From Acidobacteriaceae bacterium (GTDB lineage Bacteria; Acidobacteriota; Terriglobia; Terriglobales; Acidobacteriaceae), in assembly GCA_003138975.1 (NCBI GenBank), contig PLHQ01000118.1, positions 1 through 43,724 of the forward strand: DNA of 43,724 nucleotides, read 5' to 3'. The translations under genes and the position numbers were made by a program. Below, in pieces: positions 31,160 to 39,171 of the stretch. The notes under the pieces were generated by a model. The model ran no database searches, was not told the DNA's origin, and worked only from the letters and a program-made list of their open reading frames with translations. Within the stretch, counting starts at the first letter, position 1; each line of letters opens with the position of its first letter.

Positions 31160-31473
31160 AGAGGGAACGCCGCTTCTATCCCGGGAAGTGGGATCCCCGT
31201 TACAAGATGCTCTGGAAAGTGGCCGCCATCGATTTCGGGAGGTCGAGATGGGCCCGGGAAGGCCCCAAATGTCATGCAATGCCCTGAGATGTCCTATCTT
31301 GTCCCTTGCCGGTGTAGGACTAGCCACCTAATATCCTTCGATAGGCATCAGCGAGAAGAAGCGCAAACAAATGCGCGTCCGCCTGCTGGTTGCGCCGACG
31401 TAATCGAGTTGGGAGCCCCCAAACGGCCTTACGAAGCCAAGTCAATCACCGTCATCTGAAAAGGGGAAACCGA
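31160..31473. other. Promoter-containing gap without a recognisable gene
   Basis: No frame has a family motif. The right end carries AAGGGGA, the ribosome site of the next gene. I see no clear hairpin. Confidence 0.45.
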
Positions 31474-32106
31474 GTGCCTTCTGCTCCAGCCCGGCCGGGT
31501 ATGATCGTGGTAGATTCGTCGTTGCGGGTAGTTGCTTCCAATGCGGAGGTGCTTCAGATACTCACATTTCCGGAACAACCAGAAAAAATTAACAATCTGG
31601 ACATCTGGCTCGCCAAAAAAGTCCATGCCTCTCTCGCAGAGAGCGATTCACCTTCCGGGCTCGCGGGCAAAGTTCAATCGGCCAGGAGGACGTATCTTTG
31701 CCGCTCTTTTCCCCTCGACGTCGCGGCAAGTCATAAGAATGTTTCGGCTCAATCCGGAAGCTTGGCGATCGTCATGATCGAGAGGAAAAGCAGCGGATCA
31801 GCAACGATTGCCGAGATTTCTGAACGTTTTGGATTGACCGCCCGCGAGCAGGAAACCGTGCAGTTCCTGCGGCAAGGCTTTACCAGCAAAGAGATTGCCC
31901 AGCGCATGAATATCAGCCCTAATACGGTAAAGGCGTTTATTCGGCTGGTGATGGTTAAGATGGGTGTTTCGACGCGTTCGGGCATTATCGGCAAGGTCGT
32001 CTGTCCCGATCCAGGATCCTGCGCACCTCGGCCACTTCCGCAAATTTTGCCGGTCGCTCCACGAAAGCCTCGACCCTTCGTGGGGGAAGTACAAAATCGG
32101 TATTGA
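31474..32106 (+). CDS. LuxR-type regulator with PAS-like N-terminus, copy 1
   Basis: A 210-residue regulator. I chose GTG 31474, since AAGGGGA lies about 8 nt upstream and the resulting start (PSAPARPGMIVVDSSLRVV) aligns with the start of the paralogue at 35638. Residues about 8-115 are a sensory region of PAS-like appearance (RVVASNAEVLQILTFP, SLAIVMIERK). The LuxR helix-turn-helix covers about 125-185 (GLTAREQETVQFLRQGFTSK, EIAQRMNISPNTVKAF) and ends MGVSTRSGIIGKVV. There is no phosphorylatable receiver domain, so it probably senses a ligand or redox state. About 25 extra residues follow the normal end. Confidence 0.88.
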   Translation: MPSAPARPGMIVVDSSLRVVASNAEVLQILTFPEQPEKINNLDIWLAKKVHASLAESDSPSGLAGKVQSARRTYLCRSFPLDVAASHKNVSAQSGSLAIVMIERKSSGSATIAEISERFGLTAREQETVQFLRQGFTSKEIAQRMNISPNTVKAFIRLVMVKMGVSTRSGIIGKVVCPDPGSCAPRPLPQILPVAPRKPRPFVGEVQNRY

Positions 32107-32775: not shown

Positions 32776-34506
32776 CTATTGACGTTTGCCAGAAGGTGGG
32801 GTTGTAAGTCGTTGCAGGTGGGTTGCCCAAGCCGACAGTTCCCCTCCGGGGGCAACATTGCTTGCATCGCAGGATTGATTACTGACACTTTCTGCTGAGA
32901 CAATCTCGATCACACCAGCTTCTGGTCTGATACCAGTGGCGGGATGATTCGTCAGATCATGGTTCACCGACAGGGTCAGGAGGCCATCTTGGGAAACCGG
33001 ACATCCACAGCACTCAGTCATTTCTTGCTGCGCGTCAAAGACGTAGACCATTGCGCAGAGGGGACCGCTCGTCATTCCGACGTTGGCGACACGCACGGTT
33101 GCATCTAGATTTGTTGCGGAGTTGTTGGCATTGCTGAAGTAGTTCAGTAACAACCGCGGCTCCACTGTTGAGTCAGAGCTACTGTCCGTGGGCCCATCAA
33201 CTCCCACTCCTCCTTCAACCGTGCCACAGGTGCAGATACCCTTAGTATTTGCCTTCAAAAATCCGCATAGGCCTTGAAGTACTGCCAAGTGGGTTCCACT
33301 TAGTGCCAAGACGTCAAATGGCGATTCTGTAAACGTACTTCCTTCCTGAACCTTGACGTTTGCCGACCCACTCAGCCCATTCAAGTTGGCCGAAATGGTG
33401 GTGGAGCCGACGGCGTCCGCGACCGCCACTCCTGCGGGACTAATACTTACCAGGGACGAATTCGCAGAAGACCAAGCCGTCGAATTCGTAAGACCTTGAG
33501 TGCTCCCGTCACTGAAGGTGCCGGTCGAGGTGAATTGTTCCGTCGCCCCCAGCACAATCGATGAATTCGCTGGAGCCACTGCAATCGACACCAAGATAGC
33601 TGGCGAGACGGTCAGTGTATCGCTTCCGCTGACGGAAGCTGAGGCAACGGTGATCGTGGCAGAACCCACCGCCTGGGCCGTGACTACTCCAGTGGCGCTC
33701 ACGGTTGCAATGCTGGATGAAGCAGAGGACCAGGTCGCCGAGTTGGTAATGTTTTGCTGGGTGCCGTCGCTGAAGGTAGCGATCGCATTGAGCTGTTGCG
33801 TCCTGCCCTTTGGGACCGAGAGACTCTGCGGGCTCACGGCGATCGCGACCAGGACGGCGGGCGAGACGGTTAGGGTGGCGCTTCCACTCACGGATGCCGA
33901 GGCAGCGGTGATCGTGGCAGAACCCACCGCCTGGGCTGTGACTACTCCGGTGGCGCTCACGGTCGCAATGCCGGATTGAGCAGAGGACCAGGTCGCCGAG
34001 TTGGTAATGTTTTGCTGGGTGCCGTCGCTGAAGGTGGCGATCGCATTGAGCTGTTGCGCCGCGCCCTTCGGGACCGAGAGACTCTGAGGGCTCACGGCGA
34101 TCGAGACCAAGGCGGCTGCAGAGATGGTAAGAGTGTCCGAAGACGTGACTGAGCCTGAAGTTGCGGTAAGTTTGGCGCTTCCGATTTGTTTGCCCCACGC
34201 CAGTCCTGACTTGCTGATACTCGCGACTGCAGGTTGTGTACTAGCCCAGGCAACTGTTTGCGTCATATCTTGCTTGCTGCCATCGCTGAACAAACCCGTC
34301 GCGGTAAGCTGCTGCCTTTGATCCAGCGCAACGGTCGGAGCAACGGGAGAAATCAAGATTGATGTTAGAGTCCTACTCGAAGGTGTGCTCATCGCTGGCG
34401 GGCTGCCGCCACATCCTGACACACCGACGGTGAATGAAAGCAACAAGACAAGGCATATATGCGCAGCCGCGCCGCGCGAAGTTCCTCCTGCGCTTGCAGG
34501 TTCCAT
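32776..34506 (-). CDS. Lipoprotein with Ig-like (Big_2) repeats and a cysteine-rich tail
   Basis: A 576-residue surface lipoprotein. The N-terminus has a hydrophobic segment ending in a lipobox-like GVSGCGG, so the Cys would be acylated. Four Big_2-type Ig-like domains follow (about 45-390), each with FSDG, WSS and the VGSATIT pattern. Domains 2 and 3 are almost identical (86-residue period). The tail has a short module with C414, C425 and C427 (LQGLCGFL, GICTCG), then a second with C499, C500 and C502 (YVFDAQQEMTECCGCPVSQD). The same two modules occur, reversed in order, in the secreted protein at 36488. It likely adheres to partners at the cell surface. Confidence 0.85.
   Translation of the reverse strand: MEPASAGGTSRGAAAHICLVLLLSFTVGVSGCGGSPPAMSTPSSRTLTSILISPVAPTVALDQRQQLTATGLFSDGSKQDMTQTVAWASTQPAVASISKSGLAWGKQIGSAKLTATSGSVTSSDTLTISAAALVSIAVSPQSLSVPKGAAQQLNAIATFSDGTQQNITNSATWSSAQSGIATVSATGVVTAQAVGSATITAASASVSGSATLTVSPAVLVAIAVSPQSLSVPKGRTQQLNAIATFSDGTQQNITNSATWSSASSSIATVSATGVVTAQAVGSATITVASASVSGSDTLTVSPAILVSIAVAPANSSIVLGATEQFTSTGTFSDGSTQGLTNSTAWSSANSSLVSISPAGVAVADAVGSTTISANLNGLSGSANVKVQEGSTFTESPFDVLALSGTHLAVLQGLCGFLKANTKGICTCGTVEGGVGVDGPTDSSSDSTVEPRLLLNYFSNANNSATNLDATVRVANVGMTSGPLCAMVYVFDAQQEMTECCGCPVSQDGLLTLSVNHDLTNHPATGIRPEAGVIEIVSAESVSNQSCDASNVAPGGELSAWATHLQRLTTPPSGKRQ
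33610..34125 (-). repeat. Near-identical tandem 258-bp repeats inside the lipoprotein gene
   Basis: Two neighbouring units of about 258 bp share long identical DNA stretches (for instance both contain GGTAATGTTTTGCTGGGTGC and both encode GTQQNITNSATWSS). They encode Ig-like domains 2 and 3. The low divergence even at silent positions points to recent duplication or gene conversion. The repeat could change copy number by slippage. Confidence 0.8.
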
Positions 34507-34576
34507 GCTTCACCACCTGTGAATGGCCATCAATCTGCTGGAGGAGGATTGGAAAACGCCCGACGAACGCCCAACT

Positions 34577-34591
34577 ATACTCTGAGAGTAT
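34577..34591. promoter_or_regulatory. Short inverted repeat upstream of the lipoprotein gene
   Basis: ATACTC and GAGTAT flank TGA, a perfect 6-bp inverted repeat about 70-85 nt upstream of the lipoprotein start. It could be a regulator site; nothing beyond its position and symmetry supports this. Confidence 0.3.
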
Positions 34592-34695
34592 TCTATCAGA
34601 CACTCTTCTTCGCGGCTAAGCCAAAAGCAGTAGGAAAACAGTCCTAGTCCGTATGTACTAGCCAATCAGGTTAATCACGCTGGATCACGCAACGA

Positions 34696-35010
34696 TCAAA
34701 ATAGGAATTGCAGTCCGGAAAGATAGTTGTTTCCTCGCACCTTCGGCTTCTTCGTCCAACGGACAAGCAAGAGAGTGGGGATTGGCACAGGGACATCCAC
34801 AGCGCACATTTCGCAGCGCAAGAGGGATGATTGTGAAATGGGCTGCTGACTCAAGAAGCAAAGGCCGCCTTTGCTAATATTCTGGGCCCGCCCGAGGATT
34901 GGGCTCATGGCACTTTCGGCGGAATCGAAAGGAGGGACAGGGTTGACCTCAATCTCCAATGTCTGGGGGACTCGAGGGTATCTCCTCCGCTCTAAGTCGT
35001 AAGATCGCAT
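34696..35010 (-). CDS. PilZ-domain protein (c-di-GMP-binding type)
   Basis: A 104-residue single-domain PilZ protein. It has the RxxxR motif in ERRRYPRVPQ near residues 7-16 and the second motif as NISKGGLCFLS near 44-54, both needed for c-di-GMP binding. The GGNNYLSGLQF end matches the fold. It probably links c-di-GMP to surface or motility behaviour. The ATG lies inside a perfect 12-bp inverted repeat (34998-35029), and the nearest good ribosome site, GAGGAG at 35050-35055, is 39 nt upstream, which is unusual. Confidence 0.85.
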   Translation of the reverse strand: MRSYDLERRRYPRVPQTLEIEVNPVPPFDSAESAMSPILGRAQNISKGGLCFLSQQPISQSSLLRCEMCAVDVPVPIPTLLLVRWTKKPKVRGNNYLSGLQFLF

Positions 35011-35045
35011 GACGAACTGCGATCTTACGTCAGTGCAATCTTAAG
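34998..35045 (-). promoter_or_regulatory. Inverted repeat over the PilZ start codon, plus a third copy
   Basis: CGTAAGATCGCA (34998-35009) and TGCGATCTTACG (35018-35029) form a perfect 12-bp inverted repeat around an 8-nt spacer. TGCAATCTTAAG at 35034-35045 is a third, 10/12 copy in direct orientation. On the coding strand the A of the start ATG is the last loop base and the TG is in the stem. It could be a translational hairpin or an autoregulatory operator. Confidence 0.65.
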
Positions 35046-35116
35046 TAAACTCCTCAAATGGGTTAGTTCACGACGGCTAACTTCTTGACTTCAGGAATAG
35101 CTACTGTCAGCACTGG

Positions 35117-35638
35117 CTATAGAGGCCCGACAATTCTGCCCACGATTCCAGACCGTGTGGAGACGCCCATTTTTACCATTACTAGGCGCAAGAAAGCTTT
35201 TACAGTGTTTGGGCTGATGTCCATTCTGGCGGCGATTTCCTTGCTGGTGAGGCCCTGTAGCAGCAATTGGACCGTCTCCTGTTCCCGGACGGTTAAATCA
35301 AACTCCTGCGACAGCTGCGACAAAGCCGCCGAGCGCGACGAGTAACGCTCCAATATGAGCACTACCAGGTTGCCTTTGTCTGGGGAGTCCAGGTGAAAAA
35401 CCCGACAATTGTAGCGACGATTGCCAGACCTGAATTCCTTCACGAATTCCAGCGAATTTATCGACTGCCGATTGACTAGACTGAAGCGGATCTTGTCCGC
35501 AAGAAAAACACTTACTCGCTTAACCTGGTCGGCCAGGTTGGGAAATGTAAGAATCGTGATCGCTTGCTGATTGCAGGCTATAGGATTCAACTTGTAGTCC
35601 AAGATTAGGAAACCAGGTTCTGATATCCCAATGGTCAT
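35117..35638 (-). CDS. LuxR-type regulator with PAS-like N-terminus, copy 2
   Basis: A 173-residue paralogue of the regulator at 31474. AAGGAG just upstream supports the ATG. The sensory part (EPGFLILDYKLNPIACNQQ, then FLADKIRFSL and GNLVVLILERYS) is diverged, while the DNA-binding part (LTVREQETVQLLLQGLTSKE, IAARMDISPNTVKAF, VKMGVSTRSGIVG) is nearly the same as copy 1, so they may bind similar sites. It lies next to the PilZ gene on the same strand. Confidence 0.88.
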   Translation of the reverse strand: MTIGISEPGFLILDYKLNPIACNQQAITILTFPNLADQVKRVSVFLADKIRFSLVNRQSINSLEFVKEFRSGNRRYNCRVFHLDSPDKGNLVVLILERYSSRSAALSQLSQEFDLTVREQETVQLLLQGLTSKEIAARMDISPNTVKAFLRLVMVKMGVSTRSGIVGRIVGPL

Positions 35639-36487
35639 AGCTTACTCCTTATGAGCTTGAGGAATCTCTCGCCATTGCTTTCGAATTCGTGGTCCACAGA
35701 CGGATCCTCTCGTGTCTCGACCGCAAAAATCCCTGGATGATGCTGCTAACCTAAGCTTAAAACTGTTCACAACGATGCGCCTTCGGGAAAAAAGCCCGCG
35801 ACGTTTAGGCTGTTGGGACTAACCAGGTTTGTTAGCAGCGGAGGGGGAGTTGTACACACCGCCACCATCGAACCGGTAGGGGAGAAAACGAGTAAGTTTC
35901 CCACTGAATGCGCCTATTGTCAAGGCAAGGCGAAGCGCAGGTCAAGAAATTCATTAAGAGCTTCCGCGAAACGGATCGTCCTACCAAAGAACTAATACAC
36001 ACGGACTAATTCGTCTTGACGTCGCCTGGTACCCCGCCGACAATAACCAAACGTTGCGCGACTGATACTGACGAACTAGCCAAAATGACTAGCACATGGG
36101 CAGTATTGCAGAAGCGGTGTTTGCTGTTTTAATGTCTTAGGCGTTCTGACCTTTGCCTGCAGCTCGGGAATAGACCGTTCAGCGTCAAGCACACGGCGGC
36201 AGGAGGGCACTTTGGCACCGTGCAAGCCGACAGGAAAGCACGAAAGTTGATCAGTGATTTGCGTGCCCGATTCTGACTCGGTCGAGCTCGGACCGACGCG
36301 TACTGGGCCACCGGTCGAGGAACTACTCCATAAGGACTAGCTCCCAGATCTAGTGTTTCCGACTAAGCCACGTGGGTAATTGTAAAGGACTCCAAAAAGG
36401 TTGAGAGTTCGGCAAGCGCGCTCATAGCTGATTCTCCCCCCAGCCGCCGAGGCGCCACAACAAAAAGAGTAACGGAGGATGTATACA
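35639..36487. other. Long gap without a recognisable gene
   Basis: About 850 bases between the leftward regulator and the rightward secreted protein. No frame shows a family motif or a good ribosome site apart from GGAGG at 36474-36478. The length leaves room for a regulatory RNA or a long leader but I see no diagnostic structure. Confidence 0.45.
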
Positions 36488-37075
36488 ATGAAGATTGGAA
36501 CTTTGCTGTTTTCGATACTGGCCATCAGCCTGATGCTGGGAATCGCTTCAGGAAATGCCGTAGCTCAGAATGTTGGTGACAACAGCACCTATTTCACCAC
36601 CTACTATTCCAATGCGAACACTTCTGGAGCGCCGGATAGTACCGTGCGCATCATCAACGATGGCGACACCGGGGGGAACCTGTGGGCGTCCATCTATGTG
36701 TTCGATGACAGCCAGGAGTTGCAGGAGTGCTGCAGCTGCGAAGTAACGCCAGACGGGCTGCTCTCGGAAAGTGTGAACGCAAACCTGACGGCCAATGCCC
36801 TCACCGGCAAGAAGCCCACACGCGGCGTCATCAAGGTCATTTCTTCTTCATCGAGTGACCCGACCTCCGACGTGCCAACGACTGGGCTACGCGTATGGAG
36901 CACCCACGTCCAGAGAGCCACGGCTACCGCCGGAGCTTTCTACGTTACCGAAACCAAGGCGGCCGACTCTAACCTGTCGTCCGGCGAACAAGCATTGTTG
37001 CAGAATCTTTGCTACTATGACTCGCTGCTGAGCGGTCTCCCCTGCAGCTGCACGCTGGAAGATCACGACTTTTAA
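36488..37075 (+). CDS. Secreted cysteine-rich protein
   Basis: A 195-residue exported protein. GGAGG (36474-36478) touches the ATG at 36479 and so fits the ATG at 36488 better. A signal peptide (MKIGTLLFSILAISLMLGI) ends near residue 26. The first module (YYSNANTSG, TVRIINDG, ASIYVFDDSQELQECCSCEV) holds C81, C82 and C84. The second (LLQNLCYYD, LPCSC) holds C175, C186 and C188. Both modules also occur in the lipoprotein at 32776-34506 in the other order. No enzyme motif is visible; with six cysteines it is likely disulfide-stabilised. It is followed by a DsbA-like gene. Confidence 0.8.
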   Translation: MKIGTLLFSILAISLMLGIASGNAVAQNVGDNSTYFTTYYSNANTSGAPDSTVRIINDGDTGGNLWASIYVFDDSQELQECCSCEVTPDGLLSESVNANLTANALTGKKPTRGVIKVISSSSSDPTSDVPTTGLRVWSTHVQRATATAGAFYVTETKAADSNLSSGEQALLQNLCYYDSLLSGLPCSCTLEDHDF

Positions 37076-37309: not shown

Positions 37310-38365
37310 ATGTCGACCAAGGACACTCTGATTGCGCTCGGACTGGGGATAGCTCTGTGCGCTTTTTCCATCCCGGCCATCGGCCAGGATAGCTCCAGCG
37401 TAGTAGCCGAGATCGCTGGCCAAAAGGTGACGGCAGACGAGTTGGAGCAAAAAGAAGCAGGCAAACTGCTTCAGGCCAAATACAAGTATTACCTTGCCGA
37501 ACGCGATGCGCTTGAGCAATTCATTGACGATCAGCTATTGGAAATGCAGGCGAAGAAAGAAGGCGTGACCCTTGACGAATTATTCAAGCGTCATGTTGCC
37601 ATTCACGTGCCAGAACCGACGGAGGATCAGCTCCGCTTCTACTACGAGGGCGTTCAAACCGACGAACCTTACGAGACCGCGCGACCCAACATCATCGATA
37701 CAGTACACCAGCTTCGTACGAAAAAAGCACGGGACGCGTATATCGCTGAACTTCGAGCGCAATATGGTGTGGTAGTTGAGCTGAATCAGCCCAGTGCTCA
37801 CGTCGAGGTTGCGAATGCTCCGCGGCTTGGACCTGAGAGCGCTCCGGTCCAGATCATCGAATTCGCGGACTATGAGTGCCCTTACTGTCAAAAAGTGAAC
37901 GAGGATCTTAACCGGCTGCGGGAACAATTCGGCAATCAGGTCTCAGTGGTTTACAAAGACTTTCCTCTTCCCATGCACCCACTTGCTCCAAGAGCCGCTG
38001 AGGCCGCGCACTGTGCGGGCGCGCAAGGGAAATTCTGGGAGTTTCACGATGCTTTGTTTCAGACCAAACGACTTCAAACGTCCGACCTGAAACAGCAGGC
38101 GCGCACGTTGAAACTCGACACCGCCCGTTTCGATCAATGCCTCGATGGCGGAGAAGAAATTGCCGTCGTGAAGAAGGATGCCCAGGAAGGCCAGCGGCTT
38201 GGATTACAGGGCACACCGAGCTTTTTCATAAATGGCCACTTCATGAGTGGCGCCATTGGATTCATGAAATTGCGGGATACGGTGCTGCAAGAACTGGGGG
38301 CGGTGACCACCGCAAGAAAGCAAACTGCTGCTCTCGTGCCGGCGAAAGATGCAGGGAAGAAGTGA
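37310..38365 (+). CDS. DsbA-like thiol oxidoreductase with a SurA-like N-terminal domain
   Basis: A 351-residue exported protein with AGAGGGGA before the ATG. A signal peptide (residues 1-25) precedes a helical SurA-N-like chaperone region (about 28-150: VVAEIAGQKVTADELEQKEA, ALEQFIDDQLLEMQAKKEG). A DsbA-type thioredoxin fold follows (about 165-335: VQIIEFADYECPYCQKVNED, active site C190-P-Y-C193; DFPLPMHPLAPRAAEAAHCA; cis-Pro in GTPSFFING). It would introduce or rearrange disulfides in exported proteins while holding them unfolded. The cysteine-rich secreted protein just upstream is a likely client (inference). Similar fusions are annotated as DSBA oxidoreductases. Confidence 0.9.
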   Translation: MSTKDTLIALGLGIALCAFSIPAIGQDSSSVVAEIAGQKVTADELEQKEAGKLLQAKYKYYLAERDALEQFIDDQLLEMQAKKEGVTLDELFKRHVAIHVPEPTEDQLRFYYEGVQTDEPYETARPNIIDTVHQLRTKKARDAYIAELRAQYGVVVELNQPSAHVEVANAPRLGPESAPVQIIEFADYECPYCQKVNEDLNRLREQFGNQVSVVYKDFPLPMHPLAPRAAEAAHCAGAQGKFWEFHDALFQTKRLQTSDLKQQARTLKLDTARFDQCLDGGEEIAVVKKDAQEGQRLGLQGTPSFFINGHFMSGAIGFMKLRDTVLQELGAVTTARKQTAALVPAKDAGKK

Positions 38366-38460: not shown

Positions 38461-39171
38461 CTAGTTCCTGTCAGGCGGTGAACTAGCAACGGCTGCAGCG
38501 GTCTTGAAAGCGGCCATGCCCATGCAGAAACTACCCGCGGCCCTCCCCCCGGTTAGTGTCGGTTGATAAGTTCCTGATGGTGCATTTAGGAAGTACACAT
38601 AAGAAGTGCTGTACTTCCATCCCGCAGGAGTGACGCCGGTTGGAAGAGGGGCGGTAGAAAAGTAACGGGCAATTATAAAATCCTTTGTTGTCGTCGTGAT
38701 ACTAGGGCCAACCTCTAGATCACCGCTCGTTGCAGTCCCGTTGCTCACTTGCGCTCCGGTTCCATCCAGGACGGAGGACAACGCCATGCCTGAAACTTCA
38801 AGAAAAGCATTAAGACTACCTTTAACGTGATCTGACAGATGGAATTTGAGCTCGGTCACACCTGGGTTGCAATTCTCACAGTACCAAATATCAAGAGACT
38901 TCTCCGCGCAAGACGAACTTGTCCCTGGGACTTGTTTATACGTGTTACCCCCATCGGGTGCATTGTCGGAAACGCTCAAGACCTTGACACCAGGGGAAAG
39001 AAGCACCGGCATGGCGATGAGGACACTGCCCTTGCCGCTTGGCTTAGGCAGATCCATGTCCGAGACCGTGCCCGCACCGGCACTAACCGCGACAAACTGT
39101 TGAACTACGGTTTGAGCAGATAACTCGACTCCTCCACAAAATAACATGAAAACCAGTAGCTTCCTCCCCAT
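38461..39171 (-). CDS. Exported hypothetical protein
   Basis: A 236-residue product with a short signal peptide (MGRKLLVFMLFCGGVELSAQ) and GAAGAGG upstream. The mature part is beta-rich and Ser/Thr/Gly-rich (TVVQQFVAVSAGAG, GSVLIAMPVLLSPG, IWYCENCNPGVTELKFHLSD, VSGMALSSVLDGTGAQ). Two CxxC-like cysteine pairs occur near residues 88-100. The pattern resembles repeat units of large secreted acidobacterial proteins and may be a single beta-sandwich domain. Function unknown. Confidence 0.65.
   Translation of the reverse strand: MGRKLLVFMLFCGGVELSAQTVVQQFVAVSAGAGTVSDMDLPKPSGKGSVLIAMPVLLSPGVKVLSVSDNAPDGGNTYKQVPGTSSSCAEKSLDIWYCENCNPGVTELKFHLSDHVKGSLNAFLEVSGMALSSVLDGTGAQVSNGTATSGDLEVGPSITTTTKDFIIARYFSTAPLPTGVTPAGWKYSTSYVYFLNAPSGTYQPTLTGGRAAGSFCMGMAAFKTAAAVASSPPDRN

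Follow-up and report, generated by a model that had tools for sequence, protein, structure and literature searches.

The window analysed here, the whole 43,724-nucleotide contig PLHQ01000118.1 from the draft genome of an Acidobacteriaceae bacterium (assembly GCA_003138975.1), encodes two neighbouring exported proteins, a secreted single-domain protein (SEC) and a lipoprotein (LIPO), both of whose open reading frames (ORFs) were found in it. A single exported domain, as yet without a name, makes up both SEC and the C-terminal head of LIPO and is composed of two cysteine-bearing modules, A and B. The modules follow each other as A-B in SEC and as B-A in LIPO, whose head is shown by profile comparison to be a circular permutation of the domain. 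Moreover, the paired loss of cysteines among relatives strongly indicates that three disulfides join A to B, and such a staple may have allowed the order to change. Taken together, the permutation of the LIPO head and the disulfide staple are considered about 85% likely. Most circular permutations come to light in comparisons of distant proteins, when their origin has been erased. The present case offers a single permuted ortholog, whereas the others found at this conserved locus are unpermuted; a piece of the junction appears to be readable, and the disulfides can be mapped from paired losses.

Module homology and permutation of the LIPO head

The first-pass annotation had placed module B before module A in LIPO and A before B in SEC, and had taken the modules of the two proteins for homologous. 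Both statements are borne out by profile matches, which occur in swapped order. Module A is 47% identical between SEC and LIPO (pairwise E 1e-28), and module B, compared alone in the same pairwise manner, did not give a significant match (17.7 bits, E 0.41). The B profile matched LIPO residues 391-429 with 26.7 bits, the best of the shuffles of this region reaching 8.8 bits (2000 shuffles, of which 1893 returned a score), and the A profile matched LIPO residues 446-567 with 158.8 bits, the best scored shuffle reaching 9.4 bits. The search of each module separately, which had been proposed as a check, found A and B each far above shuffled sequence. The two profile matches are separated by 16 residues.

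The inversion was evident when the whole domain was used as the query. A profile built from 18 relatives matched LIPO as two inverted pieces, its positions 124-189 falling at LIPO 368-431 (18.0 bits) and its positions 28-143 at LIPO 452-569 (142.8 bits). With a profile made from 117 other members, LIPO in its native order gave 17.1 + 162.9 bits, whereas LIPO rotated to A-B gave a single match of 192.0 bits over profile positions 25-188; the best of 200 controls, in which A was followed by shuffled B, gave 168.4 bits. The suggestion of a circular permutation is upheld by this comparison and by the finding that A-B is the common order in relatives. A chance match of the module order was ruled out by the profile scores and the shuffles.

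The motifs of SEC are ECCSC, DGLL and THVQR in module A and LC-x10-C-x-C in module B. Its cysteines in the listed ORF are C84, C85 and C87 (A) and C178, C189 and C191 (B); the motif had been recognised correctly, but the numbers first assigned to it were 3 too low, the count having begun at the second methionine. The positions assigned to module B of LIPO (C414, C425 and C427) are correct, and the other cysteines of LIPO are C18 in the signal peptide, C32 in the lipobox and C484, C499, C500, C502 and C546 in module A. The identical C-x10-C-x-C spacing in the two proteins, also noted in the first reading of the sequence, is present. As evidence of kinship it was dismissed, x12 being the commonest spacing: it occurs in 90/117 rows of relatives, with x10 in 5/117, and in all LIPO-type rows that could be parsed (19/19, of 20). 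Since x12 is common in relatives, the SEC and LIPO of the window probably reached x10 separately.

LIPO retains 29/35 strongly conserved positions (canonical rows have a minimum of 26, a 5% point of 28 and a median of 33) and all eight corresponding cysteines. Two points weigh against a permuted, functional head. LIPO no longer has the GSG-type turn that precedes CxC, nor three further conserved residues, and the permutant is known from one draft genome, so that an assembly error is possible. The low confidence of the AlphaFold2 model of LIPO, the change at 6/35 conserved positions and an end branch of 0.83 in the tree of module A could be taken to mean that the head is a decaying leftover which no longer folds, LIPO acting via its Big_2 repeats alone. 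This is unlikely, because none of the eight structural cysteines is missing, the reading frame is uninterrupted and the number of retained positions lies within the canonical range. A misjoining of two head-bearing stretches would be suggested by the single occurrence of the permutation among 45 genus genomes and by the 223 contigs of the draft. Nevertheless, one open frame spans B, linker and A, the linker is no clean joint and apparently holds a diverged remnant, and the modules are near-copies of nothing found in the genome, where the LIPO head shares 45-48% and 38% identity with the two other family members; an artefact of this kind is therefore judged very improbable.

Probable disulfides between modules A and B

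Six cysteine columns, A1, A2 and A3 in ECCxC and B1, B2 and B3 in module B, were followed through 117 rows, a set which leaves out five fragments and the permuted LIPO. All six cysteines were present in 106/117 rows. No row lacked only one of A2 and B2, and 4 rows lacked both; A3 and B3 were missing as a pair from 3 rows, and A1 and B1 were present in 117/117. The loss of B3 alone was found in 4 rows (L012, L087, L132 and L151). In each of these the changed C-terminal tail holds a further cysteine a few residues later. This extra residue is interpreted, short of proof, as a partner that has shifted, and given its presence in all four rows the B3-only losses were set aside as evidence against an A3-B3 pair. 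On a quick tree built with the A2/B2 and A3/B3 columns masked, the A2/B2 losses correspond to 4 changes (of which the starred branches force at least 3), the A3/B3 losses to 2, and the B3-only losses to 4, at least 2 of them forced. An extra pair of cysteines in module A showed 92 rows with both, 23 with neither and 2 discordant. The parity of the cysteines, counted from the first strand, was odd in both modules in 72/81 rows, and not so in 9.

This natural co-loss argues strongly for the pairing A1-B1, A2-B2 and A3-B3, the first pair being assigned by elimination because both of its cysteines are universal. The predicted disulfides are C84-C178, C85-C189 and C87-C191 in SEC, and C499-C414, C500-C425 and C502-C427 in LIPO, with C484-C546 in addition; every near-universal disulfide would thus join A to B. 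The earlier idea that the two modules can pair in either order is supported in substance by the three A-B disulfides which the co-losses imply. The domain would be held by these bonds rather than by the order of the chain, and the change of order may be tolerated because three bonds staple A to B. A domain whose halves are joined in this manner represents a testable case of the possible survival of a fold under permutation.

Two reservations apply to the pairing. The pattern of the extra pair requires just 3 changes and rests on few events, and co-loss shows which cysteines pair, not whether they do so within a chain or between chains. Since co-loss fixes the pairs and not their chain membership, module B of one head might close on module A of the next, so that disulfide-linked chains of SEC would be anchored by LIPO, the order of the modules would not matter and the permuted anchor would form one end. 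Tandem arrays of SEC do occur (four copies on G008:C95, three on G031:C38 and two on G007:C43), LIPO bears the same head, and at L109 and L113 the LIPO head clusters with the SEC of its own locus, as if the heads had to match. Inter-chain bonding is nonetheless improbable, as the best AlphaFold2 model of SEC is a compact monomer (predicted template modelling score, pTM, 0.80) in which the B helix has a predicted local distance difference test (pLDDT) value mostly of 80-85, and co-losses within one chain are the simplest sign of intra-chain bonds. Slightly more doubtful still is a two-part covalent coupler acting across chains, in which plug-and-socket halves, locked by three disulfides and assembled by a dedicated foldase of the DsbA/SurA type, would build SEC chains or a surface layer with LIPO as the anchor; the permuted LIPO would then show the halves to be separable. 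The staple within one chain remains the preferred reading.

Distribution, ancestral order and origin of the swap

Members were found in 39/397 genomes of the order and 45/398 of the family, all positives belonging to one family, and in the phylum sample only the window's own genome was positive (1/396); the genome samples overlap. The sole search beyond the phylum was a pattern scan over the species collection, in which the close relatives came from ten loci, all in records of Acidobacteriaceae, Terriglobales or Acidobacteria/Acidobacteriota. All members found belong to the phylum of the window. A family member is present in 18/45 genomes of the genus, and LIPO was seen in G000, G016 and G286 only; a genome of the genus need not have LIPO.

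The fetched loci provided 123 distinct members for examination, of which 117 are continuous A-B, five are fragments and one, the LIPO of the window, is B-A. Three of the fragments are cut at contig ends and two come from one broken copy (L032), whose remnant is among the 81 rows used for the A/B profile scores, the spacing and parity counts and the early analysis of cysteine co-loss. The small fragments G010:C670 and G173:C38 stand outside the count, as does a weak match of G051 in another family (six internal stops, E 7.6e-4). At about L032:3102-3607 a third SEC-like copy is apparently split over two frames. Members in ORFs of at least 400 residues amount to 23/117. LIPO-type heads were seen as one C-terminal A-B match in 20 of these 23; L127 and L148 have a LIPO-type start and junction, and L154, with the domain within the first 80 residues of a 772-residue frame, shows a third architecture. 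No other B-A head was found among the 45 genus genomes. The sole other match starting well within B, G286:C164, is LIPO-type and reads A-B in L109.

An 81-row tree of module A places the LIPO of the window with 17 other LIPO-type heads (99/98), and its module B fits the LIPO-type B profile (29.8 bits) better than the SEC-type profile (18.8 bits). Because the other LIPO heads are A-B, and because the tree and the B profile are of the LIPO type, the permutation most likely arose in the LIPO lineage, in place. Together with the grouping in the tree, the same gene order, LuxR-type regulator, PilZ and Big_2 lipoprotein, identifies the LIPO of the window as an ortholog of the unpermuted LIPOs. This placement is weakened by the long end branch of the window LIPO row, the tree tool warning that the position of long rows is unsure.

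The LIPO-type heads of L109, L110 and L113 were placed among SEC proteins, those of L109 and L113 as sisters of the SEC of their own locus, which suggests that these LIPO heads were overwritten by SEC. The heads of L109 and L110 apparently lack the first strand or strands.

The seeming exchange of sequence between SEC and LIPO heads at L109 and L113, and the x10 spacing shared in the window, would also fit an insertion of B before A from the neighbouring SEC gene, i.e. domain shuffling. The LIPO-type character of module B is against it, and so is the stretch before module A, which is like a LIPO junction (7.8 bits) and unlike SEC (-32.9 bits); the probability of such an insertion is accordingly low.

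The stretch in question bears on the origin of the permuted order. In canonical LIPO proteins the last Big_2 repeat passes into A through a junction of the LTVxPLxAVxYF type. The LIPO of the window has two such ends in the same register: module B is preceded by ANVKVQE and module A by STVEPRLLLNYF. The above scores are those of the 14 residues in front of A against a table of 19 LIPO junctions and against SEC, and the LIPO-type score was matched or beaten by 37/100,000 linker shuffles. Within the LIPO protein these residues form the third-best site, behind two Big_2 ends. Against their being a junction it must be said that 17/19 canonical junctions outscore them (11.9 or more); for this reason the remnant, if it is a copy, is a worn or partial one. 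The remnant suggests a duplication followed by a deletion, in which the unit Big_2-end/A/B would have been duplicated in tandem and the first A and the last B then lost. Judged from the leftover junction, this origin is the most likely, and duplication/deletion is among the permutation mechanisms listed in PMC2395249. Other mechanisms are also possible. The natural circular permutants listed there, such as plant lectins, swaposins, SLH domains and C2 domains, represent the same kind of event; LIPO differs from them in that a single ortholog of a conserved locus is permuted, that a leftover junction has probably persisted and that three disulfides span the halves.

Predicted fold, co-encoded genes and proposed function

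Neither SEC nor the LIPO head gave a match above cut-off in Pfam or NCBIfam, or a sequence relative in PDB, where the sole listing had E 0.03; the first-pass statement that no described domain has this pattern holds for these three collections. The structure prediction that it had recommended for both proteins succeeded in part, giving one fair model of SEC and a poor one of LIPO. From a 12-row alignment, the best of five AlphaFold2 models of SEC (pLDDT 81.3) combined a beta-sandwich and a helix at the C-terminal end; the others reached 70.3, 62.2, 55.5 and 43.8. The sandwich would correspond to module A, and module B to a C-terminal segment of strand, helix and CxC. The alignment behind the LIPO model included 4 fragments of B and 5 of A, and the last residues of its B rows were misplaced; a MAFFT joint alignment of random mixtures of B and A fragments to LIPO failed in 499/500 cases.

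Foldseek, run with the SEC model, gave ASRT as the best match (E 1.6e-3, TMt 0.53-0.68, TMq 0.34-0.43), followed by FlgD and carbohydrate-binding modules (CBMs). The ASRT/ASRAH domain (DUF1362; PDB 2II7, 2II8 and 1NC7) resembles the SEC model in being a beta-sandwich. Furthermore, the conserved asparagine at the end of strand 2, given as a hallmark of ASRAH in the available text of PMC2739507, has a counterpart in 109/116 rows of the SEC/LIPO family, the position of strand 2 being taken from the SEC model. In contrast, the conserved tryptophan at the first strand of ASRAH was not found among the positions kept in 85% of the SEC/LIPO rows, where strand 1 has a tyrosine in 113/115 rows, and the SEC/LIPO family has as features of its own a helix-CxC tail and three or four disulfides; the word disulfide does not occur in the available text of PMC2739507. 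In that text, ASRT-type domains are argued to bind sugars, one family being a surface lipoprotein, and the last strand of CBM4 is said to be permuted with respect to ASRAH. The likeness to CBMs consists of weak Foldseek matches to those of Ruminococcus flavefaciens (5FU2 and 5AOT) and of a CBM_2 match (E 0.0088, 16.8 bits vs a cut-off of 24; 2/18 members at E <= 0.1). These are below every cut-off, and the cysteine pattern and module B are not matched.

Several results count against the fold proposed. The CxC tail of SEC is of low confidence (blocks of 69 and 52) and the other SEC models are weak; the LIPO head model is poor (54.9), the helix and strands appearing in it in swapped order. Foldseek gave no match at E <= 0.001, and there was no sequence link to ASRT or to any CBM above cut-off in Pfam or PDB.

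LIPO is similar to Big_2 lipoproteins in its stalk of four Big_2 stretches (Pfam E 7.5e-45, 151.2 bits vs a cut-off of 22.8), and differs from them in its head, which is matched by no Pfam or NCBIfam model. Its lipobox, VSGC, ends at position 33 of the stop-to-stop frame, i.e. at C32 of the ORF, as found by a pattern match; LIPO is accordingly predicted to be lipidated and tethered by its lipid. By eye, the protein sequences of Big_2 repeats 2 and 3 hardly differ, which points to a recent duplication of repeats in this gene. The parts of the locus are listed in Table 1.

Table 1. Genes of the SEC/LIPO locus and parts of their products, with positions in the window.
Feature	Position	Strand	Description
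LIPO, 576-residue lipoprotein	32776..34506	-	signal peptide, lipobox, Big_2 x4, C-terminal head B-linker-A
LIPO module A, residues 446-569	32800..33171	-	C484, C499, C500, C502, C546
Probable remnant of duplicated Big_2-to-A junction, residues 442-455, SSSDSTVEPRLLLN	33142..33183	-	in register with canonical LTVxPLxAVxYF junction; 7.8 bits with position-specific scoring matrix of junctions
LIPO module B, residues 391-429	33220..33336	-	C-x10-C-x-C (C414, C425, C427) and preceding segment
PilZ-domain protein	34696..35010	-	upstream of LIPO; RxxxR...[DN]xSxxG motif
LuxR-type (GerE) regulator LUXR1	35117..35638	-	first of LuxR-PilZ-LIPO run, divergent from SEC-DSB
SEC, 198-residue secreted single-domain protein	36479..37075	+	signal peptide, then A-B
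SEC module A	36596..36916	+	C84, C85, C87
SEC module B	36938..37072	+	strand, helix, C178, C189, C191
DSB	37310..38365	+	SurA_N-like part and DsbA/Thioredoxin_4, CPYC

The co-encoded genes were counted in 20 fetched stretches, chosen as holding LIPO in other genomes. A LuxR-type regulator was present in 19/20 and a PilZ protein in 19/20, and 18 of the 19 PilZ proteins had RxxxR/[DN]xSxxG, which we take to be the PilZ motif for cyclic di-GMP. L119, a gapped scaffold, has LIPO on one strand and both LuxR and PilZ on the other. SEC and DSB were found together in 11/20 stretches, and in 11/11 of these DSB follows SEC on the same strand at a distance of less than or up to 400 bases, with LuxR on the other strand. 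The other nine stretches were without SEC and DSB, several of them ending at or near a contig end. DSB itself matches Thioredoxin_4 (E 7.9e-28, 98.2 bits vs a cut-off of 23.2) and contains CPYC; its SurA_N-like part is just below the Pfam cut-off.

Close orthologs of DSB (49% identity or more) were present in 15/16 SEC-positive and 0/21 SEC-negative genomes of the genus, the SEC-positive exception being G010, which is 72% complete. This co-occurrence is partly expected because SEC and DSB are linked; it still fits a dedicated foldase. A DSB-like match of 35% in the SEC-negative genome G002 is a point against such dedication. From linkage and co-occurrence, DSB would be the likely enzyme forming the disulfides.

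The locus would make two forms of one head, a free one, SEC, and one carried by LIPO on a lipid-tethered Big_2 stalk. Tentatively, and with somewhat less than even odds, it is proposed that the ligand of the heads is a glycan of the surface or matrix, or else another head, and that LuxR and, through PilZ, cyclic di-GMP exert control. Sugar binding would follow from a weak resemblance of fold and from gene context, and this speaks against the proposal. The locus would in any case provide, in one acidobacterial family, an exported domain without a Pfam or NCBIfam model that has a putative foldase of its own, a regulator and a surface anchor.

Two further genes lie beside those described. A second LuxR-type gene, LUXR2 (31390-32106), is situated past the stop of LIPO. 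LUXR2 is 73% identical to the LuxR gene beside SEC in L008, the corresponding value for LUXR1 being only 52%, as if two related loci had been combined. The ORF at 38461-39171, convergent with DSB, encodes a protein with a likely signal peptide and several cysteines and with no Pfam family above cut-off, homologs of which are found in L004, L031-L033, L038, L039, L107 and L113.

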